Source: Akkermansiaceae bacterium (GTDB taxonomy: Bacteria > Verrucomicrobiota > Verrucomicrobiia > Verrucomicrobiales > Akkermansiaceae). From it: a stretch of DNA of 43,437 nt. The stretch is from contig JARWZU010000022.1 in NCBI GenBank assembly GCA_029866215.1, positions 1 through 43,437 of the forward strand, written 5' to 3'. Below, piece by piece: positions 12,944 through 41,664 of this stretch (positions within the stretch are counted from its first letter, which is position 1; each line of letters opens with the position of its first letter). Under the pieces are notes generated by a model that ran no database searches, was not told the origin of the DNA, and saw only the letters and a list, made by a program, of their open reading frames with translations. The translations under genes and the position numbers were made by a program.

Positions 12944-14559
12944 GGAGCGCCCGCAGGAACATAAGTTTCAGCCCGCCGGTCATTGGATGGCTTCACATCC
13001 TTCAAACCCGCAGACAAGCGAACCTGCGATTCGAAATTCATGCCTGCACGGTTCACCTGAGTGATCGGAACCGTCATCACGCGAACCGCATTGACAGGGA
13101 GAGAAGTGATATTCGATTCCACCAATCCGGAGGGAGTGGAAATCCTAACAGAGGTATTCACTAGATTCTCGGTTCCGCGATTTTGAATGAGCACTTCCAA
13201 CTGACCGTATGGGTTTGTTGAATCTGGCGGAATGATCCTCTGCGACGCCACCGCAGCATCATAAATCCCAGGAGTCTTTGCATTCAAAACCCTGCCCAAG
13301 TCCGGCATTCCATTTCCAATCATCGGATCCGTTCCCGCAGCGCCGCCGTCGTTCAAATAGGAAAAAAGCACATCCGCCGCCTGCCGCATGGTCAATTTCT
13401 CATTGCCCGGCCAACTCTTCACGGCAGCAATCGCCCCCAACACGATTGGGGCGCTGAACGATGTCCCGCTCACACTCGCAAATTGATCGCCAGTCCATGC
13501 CGCATTCAATCCGTAGCCGGGCGCTGAGACATCGATCTGACTTCCGCTGTTCGAGAAACCCAGATGATTGCCCAATGCATCGACTGAGCCAACCGCAATG
13601 ACCCCCTCGTTTGCAGCCGGATGGGAAACGCGATCCAGGCCGTTATTGCCAGCCGCTGCGACGATCAACGCACCTGCGGATCTCGCGTACTCGATTGCAC
13701 TTCTAACCAGTGCACTATCGCCGACACTCGCCATGGAAATATTGATGAGCTGCGCGCCCGCATCCACTGCGGCGATGATGCCCTTTGCCAGCATGAAGCT
13801 ATCCGACTGACCAAGGTCATTGGCGATCCGAACGGAAATCACCATCTCCGTCCCCGGCGCAACGCCCGGTGCCATGGGATCTCGCCCGAGGATCATCGAC
13901 GCAACCGCCGTCCCGTGACCATTCTGCAGCGACAGGTCGGCCGGAAGATCCACAAGATTGATCGAGTAAATCTTGCTAGAAAACGCGCTGCTAGACGCAA
14001 CCCCAGTATCCAAGATTGCAATGCGAACCCCATTCCCCCAATTCAGGTTGTCGCCCTTGACCCCTAACCACGCCAGAAGTCGATCACCCAACGGCACCGC
14101 ACCCGGCTGAACCGTGCCATCCTTAGGAACCGGAATATCCACCGGAAAAACAAAGGAAGCCTGCTCACTCCCATCGAGCAATCCCGCCAGATCATCGTAA
14201 CTTGAAAATCCAACCCGCAGGGCATTGAGTACATCGATCCGCCCCATCACCCGAACGGAGCCACCCGCCCGCTTCAAGAAATCCTCAAGTGCCTTCCGGT
14301 CTTTGAAAACCAAAATCCTCTCCCCCGGCAGCGCGCCCTCCAGCACCGCCTCACCGTCGCCTCGAGCCTTGGCCGTTCGCTCACCTCGGCGAAACGTCGG
14401 CATCGGTTCGTCCGCAATGACGGTCCGGCGAGGCTTCGCGCCCGAATCATTGACTTGATTCGCACGAGGCCGATGCGGCGCAGCCGTGCCAGCAAGCCAA
14501 TACCCAAGCCACGCCACGAACGCGAAGGCTGGAATCAAAAGCAAATGGCGACGCTGCAT
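12940..14559 (-). CDS. subtilisin-like serine protease (S8), membrane-anchored or secreted
   Basis: The catalytic triad is clear: D184 in RIAILDTGVA, H215 in NGHGTAVAS and S367 in SGTSFSAP, with oxyanion N305 in AAAGNNG. The N-terminus carries a short basic stretch and a hydrophobic segment (residues 5-24) that can act as signal or anchor. About 75-140 (ERILVFKDRKALEDFLK onward) looks like an I9-type propeptide that would be removed on maturation. The C-terminal part after about 430 resembles a CARDB-like beta domain (YGQLEVLIQNRGTENLVNTS). At 539 aa it is complete. It converges on the second sulfatase and is divergent from nuoD, with 208 bp between the starts. Confidence 0.9.
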   Translation of the reverse strand: MQRRHLLLIPAFAFVAWLGYWLAGTAAPHRPRANQVNDSGAKPRRTVIADEPMPTFRRGERTAKARGDGEAVLEGALPGERILVFKDRKALEDFLKRAGGSVRVMGRIDVLNALRVGFSSYDDLAGLLDGSEQASFVFPVDIPVPKDGTVQPGAVPLGDRLLAWLGVKGDNLNWGNGVRIAILDTGVASSSAFSSKIYSINLVDLPADLSLQNGHGTAVASMILGRDPMAPGVAPGTEMVISVRIANDLGQSDSFMLAKGIIAAVDAGAQLINISMASVGDSALVRSAIEYARSAGALIVAAAGNNGLDRVSHPAANEGVIAVGSVDALGNHLGFSNSGSQIDVSAPGYGLNAAWTGDQFASVSGTSFSAPIVLGAIAAVKSWPGNEKLTMRQAADVLFSYLNDGGAAGTDPMIGNGMPDLGRVLNAKTPGIYDAAVASQRIIPPDSTNPYGQLEVLIQNRGTENLVNTSVRISTPSGLVESNITSLPVNAVRVMTVPITQVNRAGMNFESQVRLSAGLKDVKPSNDRRAETYVPAGAP

Positions 14560-31373: not shown

Positions 31374-32534
31374 TCAAACCCTTGCGTTGGCAGCCAACCA
31401 TCTCCGCCGGGTGAATAAAGGCAAGACGCCGAGGCCAGCAAGCAGCGCCGCCTTCGGTTCTGGCACGACCGTGACGATCCCAGTCCCGGAGTCAACGATA
31501 GCAGAGTGACCGCCGGACAAGCCACTGACATTGACCGCTGAGAAGGCTCCCTCGTAGTGGCCAAAGTCGAAGATTTTCACGCTCGTGTTGTGGGAGAAAG
31601 CCTCACCCGGCTTAAAGTGGAGATTCAGCGCACCCCCAAAACTCACCATCTTGGAAAGCCCACCCTTGGCGAGATCGTAGGTGCCGATGCCAAATCCGCC
31701 CGAGGAGAAATCGAAATTCGCGATTGAGCCGGATTGCAGTGCCAAGTTGTGCTCGAACGTGATCGTTCCCAGAAGAGAACCGATCCCGAGAGTTCCGTGG
31801 ATCGTGAGATCACCCGTCACCGAGCCATTTCCGGTGAGGGACTGGCCAGATCCCAGCGAAGCATTTGCCTTTGCGGCGACGTTGAGGTTACCACCATCGA
31901 GTGACACTTCAGAGGTGTTGGCGATCGACCCGCTGGCACCAGTCGCGAGTGCGCCGCCACCGACGATCGTTTTTCTAGAGTAGGTGGTGATTCCATTGAT
32001 CGTTAAGGTTCCCGTCCCCACCTTCTTCAAAGTTCCTCCTGAACTGATGAGACCGGTGGAAAAAGTGACATTTCGGCCGTTGGTATCGAGAGAGTAGGCT
32101 TGACCAGCCGCCGTGCTGAAGCGGTTGGAATAATCGGTGATGTTGTCGCTGGAAAATTGCAAGGTGCCACCGCCGAAGCCGATGCTCCCCGTCGAACCCA
32201 AGGCACCCGCGCTGCCCAGCGCCAAGACGCCCGCGTCGAGTTGGGTGCCGCCCGAATAAGTGTTCGAACCCACGAGGATCACCGTTCCCGCAGTGGACTT
32301 CGTCAACGCGCCACCACCGGCCAAATTTGCGGCGATCGATCCGCTGCGCACGTCGTAGGAGGTACCGATCAGCACACCCGTCGTGCCAGTGATATTTCCA
32401 CTCGAAAGAATCACCGCGCCGACGGTATCGCTGAACGTCTTGAGATCGAGGGTGCCCCCCGAAACCTGAACCGCACCACTCGCAAGCGCGTTGCTCACCC
32501 CGTAGGCGAGCGTGCCCGCCTGAATATCGGGGAG
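31374..32534 (-). pseudogene. 5'-truncated autotransporter-repeat / PEP-CTERM protein gene
   Basis: A minus-strand frame of about 386 codons with autotransporter-associated beta-strand repeats (GGGALTKSTAGTVILVGSNTYSGGT; GGTLKKVGTGTLTING) and a PEP-CTERM tail (VVPEPKAALLAGLGVLPLFTRRRW). The repeats continue in frame upstream of the only candidate start (GTG at 32498) as DIQAGTLAYGV, then hit TAG at 32535-32537. No signal peptide is found. The first part of the gene is therefore missing, replaced by the unrelated sequence that carries the 21-bp array. It may be unexpressed. Confidence 0.78.
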
Positions 32535-33263
32535 CTAGAATGGTCAAAAAGGGGGTCGTGCAAAGTGCATCATTCCAAATGAGAATCAATCGATTTCGTG
32601 AAAAAGCCTCATTGAGCCAGAAACAACCTCTAATCCGCAGTTGCGGATCTTGTCGGTGTTTGAGGACGGAAACGAACGCCCATCGGGTAGAAGAGCACTG
32701 CATTTTAAATTCCTTGAGAGGATTGGAACTTGGCGACCTTCCTAACGAATGGGTCGACGACCGCCCCGATGTCGAGGTTCCCGTACGCCATGTAAGCCCT
32801 CCGTTACTCGATGCACGAACCCCGTTACGCGATGTAAAACAACTTTTACATCATGTTCGGGTGCTTGTGCGCGATGTAAAGTTGCCCGTACATCATGTTC
32901 GGGTGCTTGTGCGCGATGTAAAATTGCCCGTGCACGATGTTCGGGTGCTTGTGCGCGATGTAAAATTGCCCGTGCACGATGTACGGGCACCCGTGCACGA
33001 TGTTCGGGTGCTTGTGCACGATGTAAAACGACCCGTGCACGATGTAAAACGACCCGCGCACAACGGGACGGACCCCTGTGCGCGAGACATGGAAAGGCAC
33101 GTCCGCCGCCACCGCATGGATTCAGATTCAACGAGTCGCACATGAAATAGGTGGAAAATCATCTCGCCGAAGCTCCGTTGCCAGTGCCCGTCACCTGACC
33201 CATCCGCCCGCCCCAGCCGAATTCCAATGGTGGATTCTAGGTTGAAAAGCATGAGTTGACCTT
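32535..33263. other. gene-free insert-like region between truncated PEP-CTERM gene and mutT
   Basis: This 729-bp stretch has long open frames on both strands, but they arise because the 21-bp repeat lacks stops in five frames; none has homology I recognise. It holds a perfect inverted repeat, ATCCGCA-GT-TGCGGAT (32633-32648), the 21-bp array (32771-33064) and about 200 bp of plain sequence before mutT. The abrupt start against the truncated gene suggests a rearrangement or insertion border near 32535. Confidence 0.6.
32771..33064. repeat. 21-bp tandem array 1, 14 units
   Basis: Fourteen consecutive units of exactly 21 bp (294 bp). Each starts GT (one GC), then has a variable window (positions 3-9), then a core close to CCCGTGCACGAT. 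From 32855 to 32980 two subtypes alternate, GTTCGGGTG-led and GTAAA-led, giving a 42-bp higher-order period. Units at the left end are the most diverged, and a further degenerate unit may lie at 32750-32770. Changes do not prefer a third codon position, so protein coding is unlikely. It is not a CRISPR array: there are no spacers. Confidence 0.93.
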
Positions 33264-40473: not shown

Positions 40474-40767
40474 TCAGAATCTTCCCAAGCGCTGTCAGTC
40501 AAATCCCAGCCGCTGTCAGCTCGTTCCCAAGTCCTGTCAGCTCATTCCCAAGCGCTGTCAGTCAATTCCCAGCCGCTGTCAGCCAATTCCCAGCCGCTGT
40601 CAGTCAATTCCCAGGCGCTGTCAGTCAATTCCCAGGCGCTGTCAGTCAATTCCCAGGCGCTGTCAGTTAATTCCCAGGCGCTGTCAGTTAATTCCCAGGC
40701 GCTGTCAGTCAATTCCCAGCCGCTGTCAGCTAATTCCCAGTCGCTGTCAGAGACTCCCCAAGTCCTG
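40474..40767. repeat. 21-bp tandem array 2, 14 units
   Basis: Fourteen consecutive 21-bp units (294 bp), each made of TCAG, a variable window (positions 5-9), TCCCA (CCCCA in the last unit), a second short variable part (15-17) and (C/G)CTG. A weaker fifteenth unit precedes it at 40453-40473. Units 7-9 are identical, as are 10-11; outer units are more diverged, as expected of an old array growing in the centre. The sequence is unrelated to array 1, but period, copy number and design match. All three plus frames lack stops, so the heptapeptide ORFs seen here are by-products. Confidence 0.93.
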
Positions 40768-40834: not shown

Positions 40835-41659
40835 CGCCGCTGTAACAAAGTTTCCCTCGCTACCCAAGAGCAAATCGAAGCCTTCGCCGAGATGGAGCGC
40901 CTCCTCCCCGGTGCCCGCCGCAGTGCCAACCCCGCCTTTCCCGATAACGACGTCCGCCTCCGCAGCGAGTTCCAAGTCGGCATCCACCAACCCGCCGATT
41001 TCGCCAGCGAGATCGAACGCGCAGGAAAAGTCCACGCCGCCCGCCTCGCCCACCCCACCGCACGGGCCGCCAAAGACCAAGCCACCCTCGTCGCCCGCAA
41101 CCGCTTCCTCCTCGACGAGTTCCACCCCGCGACCGCGAGAAACCCGAAGGAAAGCCAAAGATATTTCGGCACCGATCTCACCCTCATAGACGGCATCGGC
41201 CCCGGCGTGATCGTCAGCCTGATGAGCGAGATCGGCAGCCGCGAGCACCTGCTCACCTCCTTCAAAAGCGCAGACGGGTTCTGCGCCTGGCTCGGCCTGT
41301 GTCCCTGCAACGCCATCAGCGGCGGCAAGGTCCTGCGCAGTGCTACCCGCAAAGTCAAAAACCGCCTGAGCGAAGCCCTCCGCCTAGCCGCCTTCGGTCT
41401 GGAGCGATCAAAAACCAAGCTCGGGGAATATTGCCGGAGGATGAAGGGACGGCTCGGCAAAGCAGAAGGCATCATAGCCACCGCCCACAAGCTGGCACGC
41501 ATCCTCTACACCCTAGTCGCCACCGCCGCCTCCTATGACGAAACCCAAGCCTTCCCCGTCAAGCCCGCCACCCGGCAAAAGCAGCTCCGCCAGCTCCAAT
41601 CCCTCGCCAAAAAACTCAACCTCCAAGTCCTCCCCAACCCTGCAGTTACAACAAGTTAG
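40835..41659 (+). pseudogene. IS110-family transposase, C-terminal remnant
   Basis: The frame contains the Transposase_20 (IS116/IS110/IS902) domain: TLIDGIGPGVIVSLMSEIG, then FCAWLGLCPCNAISGGKVL, SATRKVKNRLSEALRLAAFG and AIIATAHKLARILY-like IIATAHKLARILYTLV. The catalytic serine region is usually in this half. The N-terminal DEDD (RuvC-like) domain is absent, because the frame is closed by TGA at 40832-40834, about 65 bp after array 2. The gene is therefore a fragment of roughly 275 codons. No recognisable IS110 ends or bridge-RNA region were seen. Confidence 0.8.
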
Positions 41660-41664
41660 TCAAG

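Follow-up and report, generated by a model that had tools for sequence, protein, structure and literature searches.

The DNA analysed here, hereafter the window, is a stretch of 43,437 nucleotides (contig JARWZU010000022.1) from the 3.03-Mb draft genome of an Akkermansiaceae bacterium (G000; 88 contigs). It contains a tandem array of 21-bp units, the filling of an element that spans 32627-33241 (615 bp) and is bounded by imperfect terminal inverted repeats. The features of the region are as follows.

31374..32498, minus strand: neighbouring ORF with a PATR (passenger-associated) repeat, from a Pfam scan
32627..32643, plus strand: left terminal inverted repeat CCTCTAATCCGCAGTTG, the same end being found in genus genomes
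32642..32686, plus strand: IS-derived left flank (GATCTTGTCGG..), shorter than in other copies
32768..33061, no strand: tandem array with 14 cores in register and an A/B super-period of 42 bp, from TRF, unit scoring and lag identity
32831..32852, no strand: inverted repeat GATGTAAAA-CAAC-TTTTACATC with 9-bp arms, near the array start
33062..33224, plus strand: right flank of the element, 76-88% identical to other copies
33225..33241, minus strand: right terminal inverted repeat (..GGATTCTAGG)
40482..40750, plus strand: second, different 21-bp array (family F2, TTCCCAGGCGCTGTCAGTCAA, 12.8 copies), from TRF; dispersed

The 14 cores of the window array stand at 32768+21k (k = 0 to 13). An earlier sequence-only reading had described 14 units of exactly 21 bp with a fixed core, and this was borne out. 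The core reads [C/G]ATGT in 13 of the 14 units and GATGC in the remaining one. Self-identity of the array was 0.62 at lag 21 and 0.73 at lag 42; 2000 mononucleotide shuffles gave a mean of 0.249 and a maximum of 0.344 at lag 21. The register was lost just beyond the array (GAATG at 32747, AACGG at 33062). TRF reported periods of 21, 42, 63 and 84. Units fell into two subtypes, A (CTTGTGCGCGATGTAAARTTG) and B (CCCGTACATCATGTTCGGGTG), whose alternation over the first 8 of 11 scored units produces the 42-bp super-period already noted in that reading. Over 75 units from ten arrays of the same family (F1), columns C1, C7 and ATGT (11-14) were invariant, the invariance at the [CG]ATGT positions being by construction because the script demanded that pattern; an eleventh array (L012), whose last unit was off pattern, was left out. 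The remaining columns mostly took two or three states. Positions 3-9, singled out earlier as variable, do differ among units, but the variants form a small set and are not hypervariable. A CRISPR array was rejected, since the variable positions are drawn from a small common set of unit types. Of 10 copies with an anchored left array border, 6 carried the inverted repeat of 32831-32852 without a mismatch.

No gene was found to explain the array, in agreement with the same reading: two of the five ORFs listed across it were scanned, and neither had a Pfam match. ORFs scanned nearby encode the PATR protein, a NUDIX protein and a Cons_hypoth95 methyltransferase. The PATR ORF gives an impression of 5' truncation, in line with the gene lacking its 5' end that this reading placed beside the array, but its called start is 129 bp away from the element, which need not have cut it. 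The F2 array at 40482-40750 belongs to a family that occupies about nine places in this genome and occurs in 4 of 73 genus genomes (this one and three congeners). Downstream of it, 40860-41660 resembles by eye a truncated IS110-type transposase, a candidate assignment.

Set side by side, many copies of the F1 element had in common a left flank starting with CCTCTAATCCGCAGTTG and a right flank stopping near CAACTGCGGATTCTAGG. In the window copy, the left flank (32642-32686) was 87% identical to a copy on contig C4, and the right terminal inverted repeat agreed with the left at 12 of 17 letters (hand count). No target-site duplication was recognised at this copy. Terminal inverted repeats, a length of 615 bp (below 1 kb), dispersed copies and the lack of a transposase gene (that is, of a Pfam match in two ORFs across the window array) are the characters of a MITE. 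Spacer-free tandem units, varying in number among copies, lie between a leader and a tail, as in the BrickBuilt kind of MITE.

The genome was searched with the array, as the sequence-only reading had proposed for the core. The query 32760-33075 returned 20 rows, which merged into 17 places including the window; the right flank returned 17 rows and the left flank 27, rows exceeding copies because some copies were split in two. Among these rows, one copy (L043) holds no array, and another (L166) is a fold-back form. Four of the 17 places are at the end of a contig, and a draft short-read assembly could make F1 arrays appear overly alike. Draft genomes of this group may owe some of their contig breaks to the element. 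Of the 8 F1 arrays in the window and the sampled contigs, 7 had a detectable IS-type end beside them and L229 had none; elsewhere in the genome, L024 also showed no such flank by eye. At L024 (near position 1475, contig C49), two F1 units stand at the broken end of a transposase that looks IS256-type by eye. Within the family, F1-like arrays were present in 9 of 260 genomes, this one included, and in 2 of 16 genera.

The iterons of plasmids and phages are direct repeats that span about two helical turns, and the 21-bp spacing of the window array is, as had been remarked, noteworthy in this respect. The idea of a single iteron-like locus is nevertheless not supported: the array is one of 17 dispersed places, and most of those examined have transposon-derived flanks. 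Unlike iterons, F1 was not matched (E 1e-5) by any of 72,556 plasmid and 50,697 phage records, and the exact two-unit F1 pattern had no match in viral contigs, plasmids or phages. An iteron origin was rejected on the number of places and on the kinds of neighbouring ORF scanned at the window.

The left end of the element was found in 15 of the 73 genus genomes, its own included. In three congener loci (L175, L177 and, by eye, L179) this end leads into a transposase reading frame. The L177 ORF matched PF13701 over the cut-off (E=2.3e-12), and a second piece in another frame matched DDE_Tnp_1, also over the cut-off (E=1.6e-7); the L175 ORF matched PF13701 below the curated cut-off (E=2.5e-4). 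We take the PF13701 transposase to be that of the IS1380 family. These congener copies are broken, the L177 transposase being split over two frames and that of L175 being short, and no intact autonomous copy was found among the copies seen. PF13701 had no match in the element's own genome, so that the elements there look like orphaned derivatives; in a control, the search gave a match in 3 of 14 genomes, over the cut-off in only one, and decayed copies could escape it. The comparison with a parent IS covered the left end, against broken congener copies. Congener arrays sit in flanks unlike those of the window element, and some F1 arrays have no detected IS-type flank; these observations indicate that the array can exist without the element.

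In the reading that we consider likely, a non-autonomous, MITE-like element, itself an internal-deletion derivative of a PF13701 (IS1380-type) IS, carries the array as its internal minisatellite. A transposase formerly present would have spread the element. The flanks would afterwards have decayed, while slipped-strand replication or unequal recombination, acting in steps of 21 or 42 bp, changed the length of the array and homogenised it. No gene product would be expected. At its left end, the window element shares homology with an IS end that continues into PF13701 sequence; unlike an IS1380-type IS, the element lacks a transposase gene, the array having replaced most of the coding region.

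The closest known system is the BrickBuilt MITE of Porphyromonas gingivalis. BrickBuilt carries spacer-free tandem repeats inside a MITE with a leader, a tail and small inverted-repeat ends; its 23-nt unit has conserved and non-conserved sites, and 19 copies hold 1 to 22.8 units (PMC4596501). Its ends match a full-length IS family of IS5 type, with no transposase remnant (PMC4596501). A second MITE of P. gingivalis, 464/PgRS, has ends nearly those of BrickBuilt and unrelated 41-nt repeats (PMC4596501), so that different arrays within one frame have a precedent. The window element shares the anatomy of BrickBuilt, a minisatellite of varying unit number inside a MITE. It differs in its 21-nt unit, PF13701-type left end and A/B super-period, in a host from another phylum, and in the several further array families of near-equal period in the same genome. 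BrickBuilt and 464/PgRS were the only minisatellite-bearing MITEs found in a limited literature collection. Within that collection, titles on IS1380 MITEs with tandem repeats gave nothing closer than BrickBuilt, and no literature on Akkermansiaceae intergenic tandem repeats was found. The accessible part of a 2024 review (PMC10969869) mentions BrickBuilt and contains no occurrence of IS1380 or Verrucomicrob-. A single array of this sort is ordinary once its element is recognised, the BrickBuilt kind being already known. A minisatellite-bearing MITE that comes from another phylum, and whose parent IS is of a recognisable kind, offers a natural comparison on what determines the unit length of bacterial minisatellites.

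We then compared the steps from one [CG]ATGT core to the next. All 76 steps measured, in the 12 arrays whose borders were usable, were 21 bp; this count left out L015, L016, L019, L022 and L024, whose borders could not be anchored. Exact-pattern positions showed one 22-bp step in L015 (contig C4, near 232k; 43 versus 42 over two units) and one 20-bp step in L019 (contig C79). Core spacings in L016 and L022 remained multiples of 21, and L024 had a single exact-pattern position. Sequence conservation was compared between arrays and flanks, with positions matched throughout. Mean identity was 0.72-0.74 in the left flank (10 copies), 0.82-0.88 at the array start (10 and 9 copies), 0.83-0.86 at the array end (11 copies) and 0.79-0.84 in the right flank (9 copies). 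The corresponding numbers of gaps per mismatch were 0.28-0.45, 0.07-0.10, 0.07-0.11 and 0.16-0.17. F1 arrays are thus more conserved than the left flank and hardly more than the right, and have fewer indels than either. An impression that arrays were far more alike than flanks, gained from six copies with a conserved 22-mer, came from a biased selection; when all anchored copies were used, the difference was moderate on the left and small on the right. The earlier proposal to compare unit numbers could be followed between two species at one locus with sides 93% and 83% identical, where G011 holds 3 units against about 8 for G013. This locus adjoins a gene that looks like dnaJ by eye, and its steps are 21, 22, 23 and 42.

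A constraint at the DNA level probably underlies the strict 21-bp step, acting either on the slippage products formed or, possibly, through protein binding on one helical face. In the second case, the array would be a set of protein-binding sites in which a dimeric regulator, or else a nucleoid protein, occupies a partly dyad-symmetric core in each unit, and selection would keep the 21-bp step. The uniform steps and the low ratio of gaps to mismatches in arrays agree with this idea, as does dyad symmetry: F1 arrays exceeded column-permuted controls at P<=0.065 in 9 of 11 cases and at P<=0.05 in 8 of 11 (arrays that are not mutually independent), and F5 showed an excess at P 0.005. However, recent homogenisation alone gives equally uniform steps, and steps of 22 and 23 bp in the congeners, together with those of L015 and L019, depart from a selected spacing. 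No dyad excess was seen in F2, F3, F6, F7, F10, F11, F12 or the arrays of two congeners, and no binding protein is known. From the sequence evidence, we regard binding sites as a possible but rather doubtful explanation of the array.

A protein was also considered, in which the array would be translated into heptapeptide repeats (P-V-H-D-V-R/K-x). Frame +0 was open in all ten scored arrays, the difference between A and B units (AAA/CGG) leaves a basic residue either way, and the nonsynonymous/synonymous ratio in this frame was 0.42 (P=0.012 for frame +0 alone). However, P rose to 0.079 as the best of six frames, and frame -2 was open to the same extent. The copies share no ATG, and L009 and L017 have no Met ahead of the array in frame +0. 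The two scanned ORFs across the array lack a Pfam match, and steps of 22 or 23 bp in relatives and of 22 bp in L015 break the frame; one family, F11, has a period of 22 bp. No significant coding signal was seen elsewhere (best-of-six P: F2 0.90, F7 0.28, F6 0.43), and coding was rejected as a general rule for these families. For a conserved, expressed protein, which the sequence-only reading had named as the finding that would undo it, the results point both ways, with an open frame and a low ratio on one side and a P of 0.079 across six frames and no shared ATG on the other; we judge it very unlikely.

Folding predictions bear on a further alternative, a transcribed structured RNA of tandem hairpins. 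On both strands, two F1 arrays were predicted to fold more strongly than either control, with z from -3.9 to -7.1 against 60 dinucleotide shuffles and from -1.8 to -3.6 against column-permuted arrays. F5 behaved likewise (z -3.5 and -5.2 against shuffles, -2.0 and -2.8 against column-permuted arrays). In contrast, F2 on the plus strand and F6 on the minus strand beat the shuffles (z -4.7 and -6.8) without surpassing the column-permuted arrays (0.2 and -0.8), G001 beat only the shuffles and on one strand (z -2.0), and F3, F7 and G013 beat neither control. Rfam gave two weak miRNA matches far below the gathering score. Such an RNA appears improbable. Hairpin or dyad units were rejected as a general rule, since F1 and F5 passed both controls and the other families did not.

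The minisatellite of a MITE-like element remains our preferred reading of the window array, and the part that merits work is the period common to several array families. We sampled 843 kb of the same genome (pieces of contigs C4, C38, C48, C1, C73, C65 and C36, plus the window); length guided the choice of contigs, and F1 had been seen beforehand on six of these seven, so that the sample is non-random. Among 28 strong arrays (TRF score at least 80, span at least 60), 21 were reported with periods of 20-22; when F1, with its six arrays, is set aside, the figure is 15 of 22. Four of the 21 (L185, L191, L232:4870 and L233) seem coding or low-complexity by eye or by ORF. The other 17 fall in seven families: F1 (6), F2 (3), F7 (3), F10 (2), F6 (1), F12 (1) and F11 (1). 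The step of F11 is 22 bp, and the period of F7 and F12 is closer to 20.5 (41 per pair). Families F3, F4, F5 and F9 stand outside this count: F3 occurs in the sample at L239 (reported period 43) and also at L038 and L042, and F9 has two units only. F4-F7 came to light through a search with the left end of the element. In congeners, the share of period 20-22 was 0 of 1 in G004 (200 kb), 0 of 2 in G050 (200 kb), 2 of 24 in G055 (300 kb; both heptamer runs) and 1 of 1 in G013 (100 kb, a stretch picked to hold a known array).

One transposon common to all array families was rejected: an IS-type end, present near most F1 arrays, lay near few others. It was found near 1 of 4 F2 arrays (one short array counted) and, weakly, 1 of 3 F7 arrays; in the sampled contigs and the window, it was near none of F3, F6, F9, F10, F11 and F12. 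Monomer similarity between families reached P<=0.01 in 7 of 153 pairs and P<=0.05 in 10, several of them intra-family, which suggests only partial common ancestry (F4-F6, F5-F6, F4-F9). In G059 and G032, adjoining stretches with different unit sequence keep a period of 21 bp (or 42 bp), and in G012 the unit sequence changes along the array (by eye). A mechanism of the lineage that gauges about two helical turns, and that makes or preserves such arrays whatever their sequence, would turn the step into a conserved trait and the arrays into a "library" of period-locked satellites; we think this unlikely. Array families of near one period in the same genome add to the comparison of unit lengths.

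Several other repeats were observed. At congener loci L267, L269 and L271, the unit sequence drifts along the array with the 21-bp period retained (L269 by eye). In an Akkermansiaceae MAG (L051), a 21-bp array has the core GCACGATGTCAG and a different remainder. An exception to the 21-bp rule is the 22-bp array at L237 14838-15121 on contig C73 of the window's genome (12.9 copies, GGAGCCCCAGCGTCCGGGCTAG). On contig C65 (L241, about 13330-13580), CRISPR-like direct repeats TTCACGGGGGGC..GGATTGAAAC were seen by eye beside a short F2-like array. Loci L245-L247 of congener G055 (contig C4) hold dense heptamer runs together with tandem repeats of about 100 bp and 166 bp.
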